A stretch of 23,028 nt of DNA from a virus. Shown piece by piece: positions 2,988-7,545 of the stretch. The notes below the pieces were generated by a model. It was not told the origin of the DNA. It did no database searches and saw nothing but the letters and a program-made list of their open reading frames with translations. A program made the translations under genes and the position numbers. Position 1 is the first letter of the stretch; the number at the start of each line of letters is the position of its first letter. The DNA lies in IMG/VR virus record IMGVR_UViG_3300044638_003350, positions 1 through 23,028 of that record; one strand, given 5' to 3'.

Positions 2988-3012
2988 AAAAGAAAACCCC
3001 GCTTTCGCGGGG
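2988..3012 (-). terminator. Rho-independent terminator of the leftward early cluster
   Basis: On the minus strand a 6-bp GC stem (CCCCGC / GCGGGG, 2997-3002 with 3007-3012) and a 4-nt loop are followed directly by TTTTCTTTT (2996-2988). There is no T-run on the plus-strand side, so it acts leftward. It lies 22 bp past the last gene of the leftward cluster (stop at 3035). Confidence 0.88.
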
Positions 3013-3034
3013 CCAGTTCACCGTAGGGAGGAAA

Positions 3035-3247
3035 CTAGCCAGTGTGGCACGTTCCATCCCCAAAATAAAATAGGTCAAGTCGTCGCACTATCTCCTGTTC
3101 GGTGAACACGGGATGCTCCTGCGACATAGGCTCCAGACGCCGCCAGAAGGCCCACAGGGGCTTGTTCACCTCATAGCAGGGCTTATCCTGCGGCCAGTCG
3201 GGAACGACCGCCCCATAATCCTCGAATTGCGTTTCCCAGTGTTTCAT
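3035..3247 (-). CDS. Small acidic phage protein of unknown function (70 aa)
   Basis: Last gene of the leftward cluster. It starts at the ATG at 3247 and is rich in Trp, Glu and Phe (KPLWAFWRRLEPMSQEHP, TEQEIVRRLDLFYFGDG). Its ATG overlaps the stop of the preceding 22-residue membrane peptide in an ATGA, which suggests translational coupling. No known motif was recognised. The strong terminator follows 22 bp after the stop, which supports the gene as the true end of the transcript. Confidence 0.68.
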   Translation of the reverse strand: MKHWETQFEDYGAVVPDWPQDKPCYEVNKPLWAFWRRLEPMSQEHPVFTEQEIVRRLDLFYFGDGTCHTG

Positions 3248-3312
3248 TTTAGCCCCAGCAAGATCTCGATTATGACAGCAAGCAAAATTGACATGACTTC
3301 ACCGATTTTCAT
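3244..3312 (-). CDS. Tiny single-pass membrane peptide (22 aa)
   Basis: A short frame starting MKIGEV and continuing MSILLAVIIEILLGLK: one uninterrupted hydrophobic helix after a polar start. The frame overlaps the DnaA-like gene upstream by 14 nt and shares ATGA with the next gene downstream, so it fills the gap between them exactly. That gap-filling with tight overlaps on both sides is the main evidence that it is translated. There is no recognisable family; small phage membrane peptides can be lysis modulators or host-membrane effectors, but nothing here decides that. Confidence 0.5.
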   Translation of the reverse strand: MKIGEVMSILLAVIIEILLGLK

Positions 3313-3547
3313 AGCGTTCGATCCCGTGCATGATAGTGGAATGGTCCCGGCCGCCTAGCACTTGGCCGATGAGGGCGTAGGGCGCGTTCAACTCGTGCCG
3401 TGCGCGCCACATGACCTCGAACCGGGGCCATATGACCTCTTTGCGGCGGTTGTGCCGTTTGATCGACACGGTGGATAGGTTATGCTTGGCCGCCGTCTCC
3501 CGTATCAGTTGCTCTATCTGTTGTGTGAGTTGAATCGGTGTTGGCAT
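3299..3547 (-). CDS. Stand-alone DnaA domain IV (DNA-binding) protein
   Basis: This 82-residue protein is essentially only the C-terminal DNA-binding domain of DnaA. The DnaA signature GGRDHSTIMHGIERY is at residues 65-79. A gapless alignment to E. coli DnaA (from memory) puts R34 at Arg399, which enters the minor groove of the DnaA box, R42 at Arg407, and R67-D68-H69-S70 at Arg432-Asp433-His434-Thr435, which read the major groove. A basic loop (KRHNRRK, 30-36) precedes the recognition helix, as in DnaA. The AAA+ ATPase and DnaB-binding domains are absent, so it cannot melt an origin alone. Likely roles are a DnaA-box-binding regulator or a competitor of host DnaA. It lies in the leftward cluster, whose leaders carry four DnaA-box-like repeats. 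It overlaps the upstream gene by 68 nt; the start is the ATG at 3547. Confidence 0.88.
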   Translation of the reverse strand: MPTPIQLTQQIEQLIRETAAKHNLSTVSIKRHNRRKEVIWPRFEVMWRARHELNAPYALIGQVLGGRDHSTIMHGIERYENR

Positions 3548-3731
3548 GTTTCCCAGTCCTAAACATAAAATTGAGGGCGTGCGCTGCGGTCATCAGCGCG
3601 CGGTCGTCGGCATAGTCGGCGTTTATTTTCATTATCAGCGAGCCGTCGCGCCGATGGAAGGTTAGCCCCTCGCCGGTGCGCCAGTTGACCCGGACGCCGC
3701 CGGGGATGGTTGTGAGGTCAAGCCTTAGCAC
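3480..3731 (-). CDS. Small phage protein of unknown function (83 aa)
   Basis: A GTG start at 3731 is preferred, with GGGAG 10 nt upstream; a TTG at 3740 is also in frame but has only 1 nt of spacing. The first 60 residues look like a small beta-rich domain (LRLDLTTIPGGVRVNWRTGE, then LTFHRRDGSLIMKINADY). The last 23 residues are Thr/Asp/Gly-rich and low in complexity; they lie where the frame overlaps the start of the DnaA-like gene by 68 nt, so the tail may be an unselected read-through. It follows the 45-residue gene with a short overlap. The function is unknown. Confidence 0.6.
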   Translation of the reverse strand: MLRLDLTTIPGGVRVNWRTGEGLTFHRRDGSLIMKINADYADDRALMTAAHALNFMFRTGKHANTDSTHTTDRATDTGDGGQA

Positions 3732-3855
3732 GTTCTTCAATCTCCCATTCGATCAGTTGGCGCTTGTATTCGTCATCTTCGGCCTGCGCCATTATCAGCA
3801 GCGTTTCGGTTTCTAGTTCACGGATCAGTTGCGAGAATTCGTAATAGTTCTTCAT
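3718..3855 (-). CDS. Small acidic helical protein (45 aa)
   Basis: The start is the ATG at 3855, whose ATGA overlaps the stop of the methyltransferase-like gene. This is better than a longer reading from 4047, which would run 190 nt inside that gene and give an Ala/Pro/His-rich nonsense-like N-terminus. The protein is helical and strongly acidic (YYEFSQLIRELETETLLIM, DEYKRQLIEWEIEERAKA). It could be a small anti-host or adaptor protein, but no family is recognised. Confidence 0.6.
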   Translation of the reverse strand: MKNYYEFSQLIRELETETLLIMAQAEDDEYKRQLIEWEIEERAKA

Positions 3856-4400
3856 GCGCCCCATTGTGCCGCCATCGCTTCCGCGACGCCTCCATAAGTT
3901 CGTGACCGTTCTTTCCACCTGTCCGGGCCGGGCGGCATACGATGAACGCGCGCCGTGCGGCCCTCCACTATGTCCGTGGGCTGTAGGGGCGGGAGCCCGT
4001 GCAGCCATAGGCATGTGGCCTTCGTCTCGCCGTGGCCAAACTGCCAAGGTTGGATGATCTGGTCAGGCTTCCGAATCTTGCTGCTAATGATCGAGACGGG
4101 ATTTTCCAGCGCTATGCGCGGGATCGGCGCGTCGAGCAACAGCCGCACGAAGTCGAGCGCTTCCGCCTGCTCGGCTTGCTTATCCTTGAACCAGCGCGCG
4201 CCGGACACGGCGAGGTGCGTGCAGGGCGGGTGCGCGATCATGAGATCCCAGCCATCGGTGAGGATCATAGACACGTCGCCTTGATGGTGCGGGCCGGGCG
4301 TTTCAGACGGGAGCAAGTCGCACGACACGGCATAATGACCGCGCCGTGTGAAGGCGTCCCGCACCGTCCCGCTAAACTCGCAAGCAATTAGCACTCGCAT
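3852..4400 (-). CDS. C5-cytosine-methyltransferase-like protein (phage type, no target-recognition domain)
   Basis: A 182-residue protein of a type common in phages and often annotated as DNA cytosine methyltransferase. The SAM-binding motif I region is at the N-terminus (RVLIACEFSGTVRDAF). DLMIAHPPCTHLAVSGARW carries the PPC motif IV, with candidate catalytic Cys60, and ALENP (97-101) corresponds to motif VI (ENV in classical enzymes). Then comes a conserved KPDQIIQPWQFGHGETKATC stretch and a C-terminal WKERSRTYGGVAEAMAAQW. Classical C5 enzymes exceed 300 residues; the target-recognition domain and motifs IX and X are not evident. It may be a minimal DNA methylase, a base-modification enzyme acting on another substrate, or may need a partner. 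It is translationally coupled at both ends: the preceding gene overlaps it by TAATG, the next by ATGA. Confidence 0.8.
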   Translation of the reverse strand: MRVLIACEFSGTVRDAFTRRGHYAVSCDLLPSETPGPHHQGDVSMILTDGWDLMIAHPPCTHLAVSGARWFKDKQAEQAEALDFVRLLLDAPIPRIALENPVSIISSKIRKPDQIIQPWQFGHGETKATCLWLHGLPPLQPTDIVEGRTARVHRMPPGPDRWKERSRTYGGVAEAMAAQWGA

Positions 4401-4495
4401 TATAGGCCTCCCAGTAGATAGGTTACGAATAGGGCGAGCGCGGGTATTGCCAGCGCTGCGCCGATTGCGAATGCGAGCAAGTCAGTCTTGCTCAT
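4400..4495 (-). CDS. Small single-pass membrane peptide (31 aa)
   Basis: The sequence begins MSKTDLLAFAIG and continues through one hydrophobic helix (AALAIPALALFVTYLLGG). The Shine-Dalgarno AAGGA sits 5 nt before the ATG at 4495. It overlaps the upstream 98-residue gene by 14 nt, and its TAA overlaps the methyltransferase ATG (TAATG). It exactly fills the 81-bp gap between those genes. It was too short for routine calling, but the ribosome site and overlaps support it. The function is unknown; holin-like or membrane-effector roles are only possibilities. Confidence 0.6.
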   Translation of the reverse strand: MSKTDLLAFAIGAALAIPALALFVTYLLGGL

Positions 4496-4778
4496 AATCT
4501 TCCTTACATGCGGCGTACACGTCGCGGCTGGCGCATAGGATGGCTTCGATCCGCTCAAACAGCGGGTCAGTCTGTTCGATAGCGTAGTCAGGCGCTTTAG
4601 CCTTGTCGGCGCTTATTGTGAGGTGCTGTAGTTCTATGTCGTATGGGCCGCCGTCGTCGCCCGTGTCACGGTCGCGGCCTTCCCAACTATAAGAGAGAGT
4701 CGCGACGCCGTAGCAATAAATCGCCATGCCCGGCCAGGGCTGGAATTCGTCTAATTCATATTCAATATGGTAGGTCAT
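4482..4778 (-). CDS. Acidic phage protein of unknown function (98 aa)
   Basis: The ATG at 4778 has GGAG 6 nt upstream and shares ATGA with the end of the preceding gene; a TTG at 4790 is less likely. The protein starts MTYHIEYELDEFQPWPGMAI, is Asp/Glu-rich, and has a beta-strand-like N-terminal half (YSWEGRDRDTGDDGGPYDIE) and a helical C-terminal half ending CKEDYEQD. The acidic, small character is typical of early phage proteins. No family is recognised with confidence. Confidence 0.7.
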   Translation of the reverse strand: MTYHIEYELDEFQPWPGMAIYCYGVATLSYSWEGRDRDTGDDGGPYDIELQHLTISADKAKAPDYAIEQTDPLFERIEAILCASRDVYAACKEDYEQD

Positions 4779-4939
4779 GGGTTGCTCCAAACGTTCGTCC
4801 AGTATTCTTCAGCGGCGTTGTCGTAAACGTCGCGCAGCGTTAGCAGCGCGTCGTCCAGATGATTTGTTCGAGTTGGTAGGGCGGATAACAGATCTATCAA
4901 CTCTTCTATCGCTTTGGCTTCCAGCTCTAATTCAATCAT
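4775..4939 (-). CDS. Small helical acidic protein (54 aa)
   Basis: A short gene that fills the gap between its two neighbours. ATG 4939 shares ATGA with the stop of the 179-residue gene, and its own stop shares ATGA with the next start at 4778. The protein is Glu/Leu-rich and amphipathic (MIELELEAKAIEELIDLL, then DALLTLRDVYDNAAEEYW). The double ATGA linkage is strong evidence that it is translated. The function is unknown. Confidence 0.66.
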   Translation of the reverse strand: MIELELEAKAIEELIDLLSALPTRTNHLDDALLTLRDVYDNAAEEYWTNVWSNP

Positions 4940-5475
4940 AGCGTTGCCCTCAAAAACTGACGCGCGATCATTTCGGCATTGTCCAGCGATGCGATGGACG
5001 CCGCTAGAGACAGCGACAAGCCGAACCGGGCAAGGAACGCGGTCAATTCGTCCGGTGGCACTTTGGCGATGATAGCGGCGGCCTGTTCAAGTTTAGCCTT
5101 TGGCACGCGTTTGCGCGGAACATGCGGGACAGTCACGGGCATGTCCGGGGCGTCCGTTTTGGGCCATGTGTAATGCGGCATGGGGACTTCTTTGAAGGTT
5201 GTCTTGTCGCGCCATGTCTTGCCGGGGATTTCTTTTAACATTGGGCGCATCTCAGCCGTCGCTCCCGCTAGAATTACCGCGCGCAACTTTTCGTTATACA
5301 TCGCCAGCCCGGCGCGGCGGCGCTTTGTCTCTTTGTCGGGTTGTGGGTTGCGCGCTGTCCCGCCGCGTATATGCAGGGTCTTAAGGTCTGTCCCTAGATA
5401 CGCGACGCCATGGCCGGCAAACTTCACGCCCGGGTTGCGCCACTGTTGATCCATCCATTCTTTTAAGCTGGTCAT
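4936..5475 (-). CDS. Phage protein of unknown function (179 aa)
   Basis: The ATG at 5475 is preferred because AAGGAG lies 8 nt upstream; an ATG at 5481 leaves only 2 nt. The protein begins MTSLKEWMDQQW, has a basic middle segment (KETKRRRAGLAMYNEKLRAV), a Pro-rich linker (PHYTWPKTDAPDMPVTVPHV) and a helical C-terminus (about residues 127-179) that could mediate oligomerisation. It could bind nucleic acid, but no motif proves this. The leader contains one copy of the AACATATCCACA element (5500-5489), directly before the Shine-Dalgarno sequence, and a terminator lies just upstream at 5503-5533. It therefore appears to head its own transcript. Confidence 0.72.
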   Translation of the reverse strand: MTSLKEWMDQQWRNPGVKFAGHGVAYLGTDLKTLHIRGGTARNPQPDKETKRRRAGLAMYNEKLRAVILAGATAEMRPMLKEIPGKTWRDKTTFKEVPMPHYTWPKTDAPDMPVTVPHVPRKRVPKAKLEQAAAIIAKVPPDELTAFLARFGLSLSLAASIASLDNAEMIARQFLRATL

Positions 5476-5488
5476 TGTCATTACTCCT

Positions 5489-5500
5489 TGTGGATATGTT
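5489..5500 (-). promoter_or_regulatory. DnaA-box-like leader repeat, copy 1 (AACATATCCACA)
   Basis: One of four identical 12-bp elements. The minus-strand 9-mer ATATCCACA matches the DnaA box TTATCCACA at 8 of 9 positions. It lies between a terminator hairpin and the Shine-Dalgarno sequence of the 179-residue gene. Confidence 0.7.
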
Positions 5501-5502
5501 GC

Positions 5503-5533
5503 AAAAGAAAAGGCGACGCCGTGAAGCGCCGCC
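5503..5533 (-). terminator. Leftward rho-independent terminator
   Basis: On the minus strand, GGCGGCGC pairs with GCGTCGCC (5533-5526 with 5519-5512, including one G-U pair) and is followed by TTTTCTTTT. It ends the transcript of the 79-residue gene (stop at 5539) just before the leader repeat at 5500-5489. Confidence 0.8.
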
Positions 5534-5538
5534 TGCGA

Positions 5539-5778
5539 TTAGTCTGCCTTTATATGCTTTGCGATTTCATGCCAGTTAACATCGGCAAGGAACGCCATTG
5601 CGTAGTCTAGCGCCAGCCCGTTGGCGGTTTCTTCCATAAGGTTCTCAGCGTATTCCCTCAACATCGCCGGCACGTCGTCGCAGTGGTCGAACAACTCATC
5701 GGTCGCGCCGTCGAACATCTCCAGATTGACCCGCCACGTCGCGTAGTTTGTCCAGCCGTTGTAGGTTGCATCGGTCAT
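5539..5778 (-). CDS. Small phage protein of the NGWTNYATW type (79 aa)
   Basis: Starts at ATG 5778 after GAGGAG. The N-terminal TYNGWTNYATWRVNLEMFDG is a recurrent motif in small proteins of phages and plasmids (DUF7249-like, from memory). The rest is acidic and helical (EYAENLMEETANGLALDYAM). No enzymatic motif is present. It is framed as its own unit by a leader repeat upstream (5811-5800) and a terminator downstream (5503-5533). Biochemical function is unknown for this group. Confidence 0.8.
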   Translation of the reverse strand: MTDATYNGWTNYATWRVNLEMFDGATDELFDHCDDVPAMLREYAENLMEETANGLALDYAMAFLADVNWHEIAKHIKAD

Positions 5779-5799
5779 TGTCGTCTCCTCTTTCTACAG

Positions 5800-5811
5800 T
5801 GTGGATATGTT
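5800..5811 (-). promoter_or_regulatory. DnaA-box-like leader repeat, copy 2
   Basis: Identical to the copy at 5489-5500. It overlaps the TAA stop of the upstream 96-residue gene (5812-5810) and precedes the ATG at 5778 by 21 nt. No hairpin intervenes here, so a purely terminator-linked role does not explain it. Confidence 0.7.
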
Positions 5812-6100
5812 ATATGTTGATTGTTACTTTGGCGAGAAAGCCGCTTTCGTCAATGGTGACGTTCGCCGGTATCTCATGCAGCTTGATATACTCTTTTACG
5901 CCAGCTTCCTTAAACGCGCGTTTGACGATAGCGCCGAACATGTCGCTGTTAGCGTATGACCCATACTTGGCGTGGCTGCGAAACGCCGCCATGTCGCAGT
6001 GGCGTCGTTCTATTGCTGGCACCTTGATCCAACGCCACGCGGGCGTTTCGTCGGCGTTGTATATTGTCTCGACTTTGGCTTTGAAGCTGATGATTGGCAT
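5810..6100 (-). CDS. Phage protein of unknown function (96 aa)
   Basis: Starts at ATG 6100 with GGGAG 7 nt upstream. It has a mixed alpha/beta pattern: MPIISFKAKVETIYNADE, WRWIKVPAIERRHCDMAAF, a central HAKYGSYANSDMF and a C-terminal strand pair ending VTINI. The Arg/His/Cys-containing ERRHCDM segment is conserved-looking but not a known catalytic motif. The stop codon lies inside the next leader repeat. The leader carries copy 3 of the repeat (6131-6120), behind a perfect hairpin. The function is not recognised. Confidence 0.72.
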   Translation of the reverse strand: MPIISFKAKVETIYNADETPAWRWIKVPAIERRHCDMAAFRSHAKYGSYANSDMFGAIVKRAFKEAGVKEYIKLHEIPANVTIDESGFLAKVTINI

Positions 6101-6119
6101 TATCGTTCTCCCTATTCAA

Positions 6120-6131
6120 TGTGGATATGTT
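6120..6131 (-). promoter_or_regulatory. DnaA-box-like leader repeat, copy 3
   Basis: Identical 12-bp element, 19 nt before the ATG at 6100 and directly after the hairpin at 6138-6166. Like copies 2 and 4 it is preceded by T, giving TAACATATCCACA. Confidence 0.7.
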
Positions 6132-6133
6132 AC

Positions 6134-6166
6134 GATAAAGGCCGCGCCCTTGTAAAGCGCGGCCTT
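6134..6166 (-). terminator. Leftward hairpin, probable terminator
   Basis: A perfect 10-bp stem AAGGCCGCGC / GCGCGGCCTT (6138-6147 and 6157-6166) with a 9-nt loop lies 3 bp past the stop at 6170. On the minus strand it is followed by TTTATC, a short U-tract, so termination may be partial. Confidence 0.62.
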
Positions 6167-6169
6167 CGG

Positions 6170-6367
6170 TTACAGTAAATTTTGTATTGAGAAGACCGAT
6201 TGATCGGTTGCGAGACTGAAGACGTGAACCCACGCGATCTCGCCGCTTGTCTCTCTCGCCCATTGCCGTGCGATCTGCACCGCCTCGGCTTTGGTAGTCG
6301 TCACCTCAACACGCGACAGCCGAAGATCGGCCGTTTGTATCGCCACTTCATACGCTGTCATAGTCAT
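6170..6367 (-). CDS. Small phage protein of unknown function (65 aa)
   Basis: Starts at ATG 6367 with GGAGG 9 nt upstream and shares ATGA with the stop of the 36-residue gene. The pattern is strand-helix-strand: YEVAIQTADLRLSRVEVTTT, then KAEAVQIARQWARETSGE, then IAWVHVFSLA. This small alpha/beta layout recurs in early phage proteins, and it resembles the start of the neighbouring 36-residue protein (YRVFVYRHDAWLFVDSTSDL followed by an Ala-rich helix), so the two may be related. The function is unknown. Confidence 0.7.
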   Translation of the reverse strand: MTMTAYEVAIQTADLRLSRVEVTTTKAEAVQIARQWARETSGEIAWVHVFSLATDQSVFSIQNLL

Positions 6368-6474
6368 ATGACCACCCCTCCAATGCGCGCCGCCAGCGCT
6401 TGCGCGGCCGCCAGATCGGACGTCGAATCCACGAAAAGCCAGGCGTCGTGACGATAAACGAAAACCCGATACAT
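6364..6474 (-). CDS. Small protein (36 aa), first gene of the leftward cluster
   Basis: MYRVFVYRHDAWLFVDSTSD followed by an Ala-rich helix and IGGVVI. The start ATG 6474 has GGGGG 5 nt upstream, and the stop shares ATGA with the ATG at 6367, giving translational coupling. Leader repeat copy 4 lies 15 nt upstream of the ATG. It is short, but the ribosome site and the coupling support it. Confidence 0.62.
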   Translation of the reverse strand: MYRVFVYRHDAWLFVDSTSDLAAAQALAARIGGVVI

Positions 6475-6489
6475 TTTTACCCCCTACAT

Positions 6490-6501
6490 TGTGGATATGT
6501 T
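6490..6501 (-). promoter_or_regulatory. DnaA-box-like leader repeat, copy 4, at the head of the leftward cluster
   Basis: Identical 12-bp element. Immediately upstream on the minus strand a weak sigma70-like pair can be drawn: TTGCAA (6530-6525), 16-bp spacer, TATTCA (6508-6503). If real, this would place the start of transcription inside the repeat, an operator-like position. The promoter part is tentative. Confidence 0.6.
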
Positions 6502-6572
6502 ATGAATAGCACGATTGGCGGGTTTTGCAATAAATCTTTTTACGAATAGTCGTGATAGTTAGCGGATCGTTA

Positions 6573-6722
6573 TCAAATCGCCATGGGGAGCGGGGGCTCA
6601 ATACGAGGCGCGACCTAGTAATAGTCATATCGTCATTAGTTGTTAGACTCTAGGAATTTTATATAAATGTATACAGAATAATATATAAATGTAGAGCGGA
6701 TGAAAGTTGCATGGCGATTTGA
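6573..6722. repeat. 13-bp inverted repeat flanking an AT-rich segment
   Basis: TCAAATCGCCATG at 6573-6585 and its exact reverse complement CATGGCGATTTGA at 6710-6722, 124 bp apart. A third partial copy, CATGGCGAT, is at 6807-6815. Confidence 0.75.
6660..6693 (+). repeat. Two direct copies of TATATAAATGTA, possible DNA-unwinding element
   Basis: Exact 12-bp copies at 6660-6671 and 6682-6693, 22 bp apart (about two helical turns), in the most AT-rich part of the region and inside the 13-bp inverted repeat. Confidence 0.65.
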
Positions 6723-6823
6723 CGATATGGCGATAATTGCCCCGCCCCCACGCCCGCGCAAATGGCCAGGCTCGCTCATAGGGAATTCCCACGCGACCTA
6801 AAATCGCATGGCGATACGGCGAT
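6710..6823 (+). repeat. Cluster of GGCGAT repeats
   Basis: GGCGAT occurs at 6714-6719, 6729-6734, 6810-6815 and 6818-6823, with an inverted copy at 6578-6583. ATCGC-ATG-GCGAT at 6803-6815 is itself a palindrome. These are candidate protein-binding sites. Confidence 0.5.
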
Positions 6824-6888
6824 ACGACTATGCTGCATTGCAACATGATCCGCGCTCGGCCGATCCCGATCCGCGCAAGCTCCACGTC

Positions 6889-6930
6889 AACGTTAACCTT
6901 AACGTTTAACCTTAACGCGTAACGTTAACG
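6889..6930 (+). repeat. Iteron-like AACGTTAACCTT block
   Basis: Consecutive units AACGTTAACCTT (6889-6900), AACGTTTAACCTT (6901-6913), AACGCGT (6914-6920) and AACGTTAACG (6921-6930). Two contain the palindrome GTTAAC. Such short tandem units often bind a replication or regulatory protein. Confidence 0.65.
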
Positions 6931-6949
6931 CAGGTGGCGTTGACAAATA

Positions 6950-6969
6950 GGGGGGGGCTGGGCCTGGGG
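6950..6969 (+). other. G-rich tract with G-quadruplex potential
   Basis: G8-CT-G3-CCT-G4. Four runs of at least three G with loops of 1-7 nt can be drawn. It lies in the untranslated leader of the packaging operon. Confidence 0.4.
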
Positions 6970-7023
6970 ATCTCCTTTAAGAAATACGTAGCCATCACGC
7001 GAACTTTTTTATTTTTTATTTTA

Positions 7024-7545
7024 ATGGTAAAAGACTTTATGTTTGAGTCCCTACCTTATGAACCGCGCAAAATAGAGGCGACGGAAGCCGTCCTAGAGCG
7101 CATCTATCTCGCCGCCCGCAAAGGGCTGAAAGGCGACACGCTCGCCTACGCCGCGGGCATGACCCCGACCGAGTATCGGCGGCTGGTGCAGTTCGACCCC
7201 ATCGCGGAGTATGCCGAACAGAAGGGGCGCGCTGAGGGCGAAGCGGAAATGTCCGAGGTGCTGCACAACGCCGCCCGCGCTGGCGACACGAAGGCGGCGC
7301 TGGACATTCTAAAACACGTCCACAAGTGGACGGCCCCGCAGTCGGTGCAGGTGCAGGTCGAGCAGCGCATATCCATCATCGCGGCGCTAGAAGAGGCGCA
7401 GCAGCGCGTGATCCAGGGAGAGATATTAGATGCAAGTGCCGATCTACTCAGCGGACGAAGAACAGAAGCTGATGGCGACCTTATGGTCGGCGCAGGTGAA
7501 GAACGATCCGGTCGCGTTCGTGAGGATGGCGTTCCCGTGGGGTAA
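7024..7545 (+). CDS. terS: Terminase small subunit
   Basis: Recognises phage DNA and delivers it to the large subunit during headful packaging. Position directly before terL is the main evidence. The N-terminal half has a helix-turn-helix-like stretch (GLKGDTLAYAAGMTPTEYRR), followed by a helical region (YAEQKGRAEGEAEMSEVLHN) and the ALDILKHVHKWTAP motif seen in phage small terminases. I start at ATG 7024 (MVKDFMFESL); ATG 7039 is equally possible. An upstream GTG at 6934 would translate the G-rich tract and is unlikely. No strong Shine-Dalgarno sequence is visible; the leader is T-rich. The last 38 codons overlap terL by 116 nt, and that tail is low in complexity. Confidence 0.78.
   Translation: MVKDFMFESLPYEPRKIEATEAVLERIYLAARKGLKGDTLAYAAGMTPTEYRRLVQFDPIAEYAEQKGRAEGEAEMSEVLHNAARAGDTKAALDILKHVHKWTAPQSVQVQVEQRISIIAALEEAQQRVIQGEILDASADLLSGRRTEADGDLMVGAGEERSGRVREDGVPVG

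Follow-up and report, generated by a model that had tools for sequence, protein, structure and literature searches.

The known regulators closest to the protein considered here are GafA and GafY (formerly HdaB), of the gene transfer agents of Rhodobacter and Caulobacter, which are transcription factors built on DnaA domain IV (PMC6363796, PMC9638019, PMC9632790, PMC11150451). Both are phage-derived and, like the protein at our locus, use a domain IV (DnaA-IV) module that lacks the ATPase; GafY is small and stands alone, and both act at their own promoters. They differ in that they activate structural genes from upstream. GafY does so together with IHF, through contact with sigma and with a sigma-like partner; its mapped element (mutated core ACTATG), moreover, is not reported as a DnaA box. 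A preliminary description of this DNA proposed a phage regulon based on DnaA-box recognition without a DnaA ATPase; to call this kind of regulator unprecedented would go too far, since GafA and GafY are already DnaA-IV transcription factors. A phage repressor made of DnaA-IV was not found in the literature searched, coverage of which was partial.

For the layout of the sites, the nearest parallel is the L5/TipsyTheTRex system of Cluster A mycobacteriophages, in which a repressor binds as a monomer to sites that are short and asymmetric, lie at early promoters and in short intergenic gaps, and are all oriented with transcription (PMC9283540). The sites at our locus are likewise asymmetric, lie at the promoter and at gene junctions, and are all oriented with transcription. 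However, the L5 repressor is an unrelated two-domain protein (a helix-turn-helix plus a stoperator domain) with 20 or more sites genome-wide, in temperate phages; whereas here there is an 82-aa DnaA-IV protein with few sites in one cluster, and neither integrase nor resolvase was found in the relatives searched. Host DnaA itself shares the DNA-binding fold and has a near-identical 9-bp site, but is an AAA+ ATPase, and the E. coli protein prefers paired boxes 2-3 bp apart (PMC11317965). Finally, early circuits of the Cro/C type (as in phage DSL-LC05, considered below) also have a repressor gene in the early cluster and operators in its promoter, with the same gene slot and the same spacer position being used; the difference is that the DNA-binding domain here is DnaA-IV and the sites are non-palindromic.

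Set beside these systems, a group of lake-water phages appears, from sequence comparison, to control its early genes via a protein that is DnaA-IV only; this protein probably sits on a DnaA-box-like site at each early gene and switches that gene off. We lean, with modest confidence, towards the stand-alone DnaA-IV being a monomeric early repressor, with a repeated 12-mer providing its operators and stoperator-like sites. If true, this would be a new class of phage repressor, derived from the DNA-reading half of a replication initiator, and its natural protein and site variants could be used to decode box choice by DnaA-IV. It would also raise a possible link between phage early control and the initiation of host replication.

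The domain IV protein and the repeated element

The window (the whole 23,028-nt stretch analysed, an IMG/VR record) is a fragment of a P22-like phage, with P22-type portal, coat and tail accessory proteins and a RepB_primase/DUF5906 replication protein. An 82-aa ORF on its minus strand (3299-3547) matches Bac_DnaA_C (PF08299) above the cut-off, at E = 6e-15, with no other domain: the protein belongs to the DnaA domain IV family but, the AAA+ ATPase domain being absent, is not a DnaA initiator. Its AlphaFold model (pLDDT 94) superposes on the E. coli DnaA-IV/DnaA-box complex (1j1v) with a TM score of 0.84 and an rmsd of 0.7 A. At the base-contacting positions 399, 423, 432-435 and 438-439, taken from PMC5043019, the residues R399, R432, D433, H434 and H439 are kept, while T435 is substituted by S, L438 by M and P423 by A, position 423 being variable in true DnaA too. 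The preliminary description was thus correct that the protein is domain IV alone; its further statement that the box-reading residues are intact holds for five of them but not for 435, 438 and 423. The genes adjoining that for DnaA-IV (3480-3740 and 3035-3247) gave no match to the sigma-like GafZ-type family. The early cluster also encodes, at 3852-4400 on the minus strand, a DNA methyltransferase (phrog_757, E = 4e-70).

The element AACATATCCACA has four exact copies in the window, all on the minus strand, at 5489-5500 (copy 1), 5800-5811 (copy 2), 6120-6131 (copy 3) and 6490-6501 (copy 4), lying respectively 13, 21, 19 and 15 nt before the likely leftward starts at 5475 (ATG), 5778, 6100 and 6474; coordinates and counts match the first account of them exactly. 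The Markov expectation for the exact 12-mer in the window is 0.0013, and when up to two mismatches are allowed the count is 9, where 1.1 are expected from shuffled sequences, none of which reached 9. Of the core TATCCACA, the minus strand carries five copies and the plus strand none; the fifth (1977) is within the primase gene and is probably due to chance.

The genes that follow the four copies are all leftward. Copy 4 is followed by a 36-aa ORF (6364-6474, read from the sequence), copy 3 by a 96-aa early gene (5810-6100) with no confident family match, copy 2 by a 79-aa early gene (5539-5778; DUF7249, E = 4e-6), and copy 1 by an early gene at 4936-5475, its likely start at 5475 being taken from the ORF list and the sequence. 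Copy 2 shares bases with the stop codon of the 96-aa gene before it, and copy 1 lies directly 5' of the Shine-Dalgarno sequence of the 4936-5475 gene.

The likeness to a DnaA box was also described correctly: there is one mismatch between the core and TTATNCACA in the window's clade, and ATATCCACA, the clade A core, is one base off TTATCCACA. A scan of the window for TTATNCACA, allowing one mismatch, found 16 sites against 11.3 expected, which is no enrichment, so that what stands out is this one element, not DnaA boxes as a class.

Placement at early promoters and gene junctions

Relatives were gathered by scans with the terminase (80 loci) and with the DnaA-IV protein (27 loci). The element is kept across dozens of P22-like phages among them, and most of the close ones have the 12-mer on the leftward strand. 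Those relatives that are genome contigs come from metagenome bins only (Rhodoferax, beta- and gammaproteobacteria), so that any host assignment is tentative. An unseeded motif search of leftward leaders recovered GTAACATATCCACA in the window's clade and, at the same place in a more distant clade, TGTAACAAATC(C/A)AC; nothing clear emerged for clades B, C/E and F in the grouping used, and the boxes of clades B and F, found only by targeted search, are therefore given lighter weight. Across eight records of 12-38 kb, TATCCACA is nearly confined to the early cluster and oriented with transcription, the copies elsewhere being limited to the primase gene, in the window and in its near twin, and to a single one at a contig end. 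A similar clustering is seen for the clade D element.

The first leftward promoter, P1, is predicted in the window at 6502-6530 (minus strand), from the sequence and from relatives, as TTGCAA (6530-6525), a 17 bp spacer and ATTCAT (6507-6502), with copy 4 lying over the predicted start. By consensus it is weak, and a sigma-70 consensus scan, itself at chance level overall, missed it; the promoters thus rest on comparison with relatives. In 16 distinct relatives, a set selected by the presence of a box in the spacer, P1 consists of TTGACR or TTGCAA, an invariant TATCCACA in the spacer, a -10-like hexamer, and AACATATCCACA over the predicted start, with the two cores 26-27 bp apart; the spacer box is absent in the window and its nearest relatives (L008, L020 and L025 being without it). 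The P1 hexamers are near-consensus for sigma-70, at a spacing of 16-18 bp, in most relatives. Perfect TTATCCACA stands in the spacer of L007, L010, L017, L090, L093 and L094, and other DnaA-like 9-mers occupy the same spacer elsewhere: TTATCCCCA in L055 and L069, TTGTCCACA in L068, and CTGTCCACA in the complete genome MW202483.1. Since a word conserved between the -35 and the -10 cannot serve that transcript as a signal in RNA, a reading at the DNA level is the better explanation.

The same placement bears on the sign of control. DnaA-IV might bind the boxes and yet activate the early genes, as do GafY and GafA, which carry the same domain; we hold this to be highly improbable, in that the boxes overlie the spacer and start of promoters that are near-consensus in most relatives, whereas GafY has its site at -113 to -123 of a promoter that is weak and is used with IHF. 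With the phage boxes over the core of strong early promoters, and not at far-upstream sites, the predicted sign is opposite to that of GafY.

We infer instead a repressor circuit whose reader would most likely be the phage DnaA-IV; its gene belongs to the same leftward cluster, some 3 kb further downstream, and the protein would bind, as a monomer, the asymmetric box (N)TATCCACA. At P1 the bound protein would lie over the start region, plus the -35/-10 spacer in most relatives, and thereby block RNA polymerase. The copies at gene junctions would either overlie secondary promoters set within terminator hairpins or act as stoperator-like roadblocks. As DnaA-IV accumulated, the early cluster would be turned off and the synthesis of the protein itself limited. 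Searches with PF00589 and PF00239 (tyrosine integrase and resolvase) gave no match in 18 records of this lineage each, most of them perhaps incomplete and the window included in the second search only; early shut-off thus fits better than lysogenic immunity.

The downstream copies lie at gene junctions and several of them, in the window's clade, come directly after a terminator-like hairpin. In the window, a hairpin scan places an intrinsic-terminator-like hairpin with a T-tract (5511-5534, minus strand) just 5' of copy 1, and a second terminator-like hairpin (6138-6166, minus strand; z = -4.9) is directly 5' of copy 3. At copy 3 the promoter-like pair TTTACA (6156-6151) and TAACAT (6132-6127), separated by 18 bp (6127-6156, minus strand), has its -35 within the terminator loop; it is the sole minus-strand promoter-like site in 3000-7100, where the scan expects about 3 by chance on both strands. 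At the homologous hairpin-borne sites, similarity to TTGACA peaks 17-18 bp from TAACAT (2.7-3.4 of 6, against about 1 at most spacings), and the -35-like bases sit in the hairpin loop. This pattern suggests that such sites are fused terminator, promoter and operator units; common descent of the cassette, or duplication of the terminator, could yield the same picture of embedded promoters. The clade D copies follow the upstream stop codon without a hairpin or a clear -35, and look more like the stoperators of L5.

TAACAT, at the 5' side of the element, would by itself make a plausible -10, and it could be argued that the element is simply a motif of the promoter (TAACAT plus discriminator) or of the mRNA leader (unstructured and translation-enhancing), without relation to DnaA-IV and with its likeness to a DnaA box due to chance. 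The spacing of TAACAT from the -35-like loops agrees with this, as does the Shine-Dalgarno sequence, which is always 3' of the element. The GTAAC of the 5' part is also kept in leaders of DSL-LC05, from which DnaA-IV is absent, so GTAAC probably has some separate function in the promoter or leader. However, TATCCACA also stands between the -35 and the -10, ahead of the predicted start, and could not act there in that RNA; the clades with the element encode DnaA-IV, and where DnaA-IV is lost from its slot there is no box. An Rfam search of the leader region returned no family at threshold (its single match being far under its own threshold), and the RNA of the element forms no hairpin of its own, the strong hairpins being upstream of it. 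We therefore regard a motif resembling the DnaA box by accident as quite unlikely. A promoter or leader motif, which the preliminary description set up as the alternative to operators, does not exclude them.

Co-variation and co-loss of box and protein

If the phage DnaA-IV is the repressor that reads these boxes, the variation of each is of interest, and the box does differ between clades of the protein. Clade A has the core ATATCCACA in the element GTAACATATCCACA. Clade B, which has its own clade of DnaA-IV, has (C/T/A/G)TATC(C/A)ACA or TATACACA, yet its terminases are as near to that of the window (91-94%) as are many in clade A. The clade D box is AAATC(A/C)ACA, with the forms AAATCAACA and GTAACAAATCAACA, and that of clade F is AAACNCACA, in the element GTAACAAACTCACA, where the recognition helix RDHTT has become RTHAA. 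Position 5, the N of TTATNCACA, is the freest in the box. This matching of box to protein is based on linked genes in few clades, and as gene and boxes are in one linked block the co-variation is partly shared descent. A rule connecting R399 with box position 2 was dropped, because R399 is retained in clade F and in L069, where that position is A.

The preliminary description had proposed looking for co-occurrence of gene and repeats in relatives. Where the slot of the DnaA-IV gene is covered, a TAAC-box is found in 28/36 records that have DnaA-IV there and in 0/4 that do not (one-sided Fisher 0.005, a value that ignores kinship and linkage and uses a box pattern drawn from these same clades). 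A short unrelated ORF occupies the slot in L057, L058 and L076, between flanking genes that are still present. The eight records that have DnaA-IV in the slot but lack a recognisable TAAC-box encode a divergent form of it; gene and box are thus not linked in every case. The operator reading as first put forward is partly supported, namely by co-occurrence, by promoter placement, by box variation that follows the clades and by loss of the box with the gene, and is weakened by those eight divergent proteins.

The phage DSL-LC05 (OR003940.1, portal 67% identical) has in the slot a 'repressor protein C' with a weak helix-turn-helix match, and in its promoter spacer, at the position of the box, the palindrome TGACCCAGTGGGT. 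Judged by its sequence, DSL-LC05 seems to have had regulator and operator exchanged together, which is our main reason for preferring repression. A search for an HTH_3 repressor found none in the clade A or D genomes searched, except for a sub-threshold fragment in G038. Two further repeats were seen in DSL-LC05: a palindrome ACCCAGTGGGT, in several copies around the early promoter (L153:33444-33970), and a repeated leader CTGTAACCCGTAACCGTAAAGGAACC (L153:34152-34185 and 34702-34735), which holds the stop codon of the upstream gene and no DnaA-like box.

Host DnaA could itself be the reader of the boxes, in which case the early promoters would respond to the level of host DnaA or to the state of replication, and the phage DnaA-IV would compete with it or have some other job. 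DnaA is known as a transcription factor (PMC11317965), and the single base that separates the clade A core from TTATCCACA, the spacers of some relatives with a perfect match, and the arrays of TTGTCCACA in L155 and L156, where phage DnaA-IV is absent from the available stretch, are all compatible with such a role. Yet clades D and F keep the layout with AAATCAACA and AAACNCACA, which are two to three mismatches or more from TTATNCACA; the boxes are single or 26-27 bp apart, and not in the close pairs that E. coli DnaA favours in vivo (PMC11317965); and they follow the clade of the phage protein and vanish with its gene. We consider host DnaA an improbable reader. Its recruitment, offered as an option in the preliminary description, is less likely than reading by the phage protein, given clade boxes that are three mismatches off TTATNCACA and the lack of pairs 2-3 bp apart.

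The arrays in L155 (6980-7470) and L156 (450-750), from betaproteobacterial MAGs, are tandem repeats of TTGTCCACA, with a period of 9 in places, beside the terminase; they are perhaps an origin or sites for host DnaA.

Some relatives encode a second DnaA-IV protein, and it is conceivable that this, or some other phage protein, reads the boxes. Candidates with a C-terminal sigma-region-4-like helix-turn-helix or a zinc ribbon occur in G006, G014 and G015 (230-238 aa) and in G020, G022 and G025 (161-210 aa). But the clade D records G041 and G042 (30 and 36 kb) each have one DnaA-IV only and four clear boxes, and the second proteins are without the GGRDH loop form of clade A; a different phage reader thus seems to us very unlikely.

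In relatives of the window's clade the second protein (230-238 aa) is encoded in the replication operon, on the minus strand (L149:8766-9455, L143:7873-8562 and L098:7120-7833). The match of its C-terminus to a sigma-region-4-like helix-turn-helix is below the cut-off (E ~5e-4), and the domain order resembles that of GafA. In clade B the second DnaA-IV has a C-terminal, zinc-ribbon-like CxxC pair and is on the plus strand (L127:1489-1971, L130:1309-1938 and L124:945-1427). Because relatives thus also carry a GafA-like fusion of DnaA-IV with a sigma-like part, the phage group bears on the origin of the DnaA-IV activators of gene transfer agents. Contigs L106-L111, from separate phages (~31% identity), encode 228-aa proteins with an N-terminal DnaA-IV, unrelated to the box system.

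Returning to the phage's own stand-alone DnaA-IV as repressor, a broader form of the proposal would have it be the master early repressor of a widespread P22-like freshwater lineage, in which protein and boxes co-evolve into different specificities and each downstream site is a fused terminator-promoter-operator, and in which the protein may also occupy host DnaA boxes, linking early shut-off to a block of host replication. We offer this larger scheme tentatively, and taken whole we think it somewhat doubtful.

Between the divergent early and late genes of the window, short GTTAACG-like repeats are clustered at 6880-6945, perhaps marking an origin; at the matching place, MW202483.1 has repeats of GTTTATGTAAAC.
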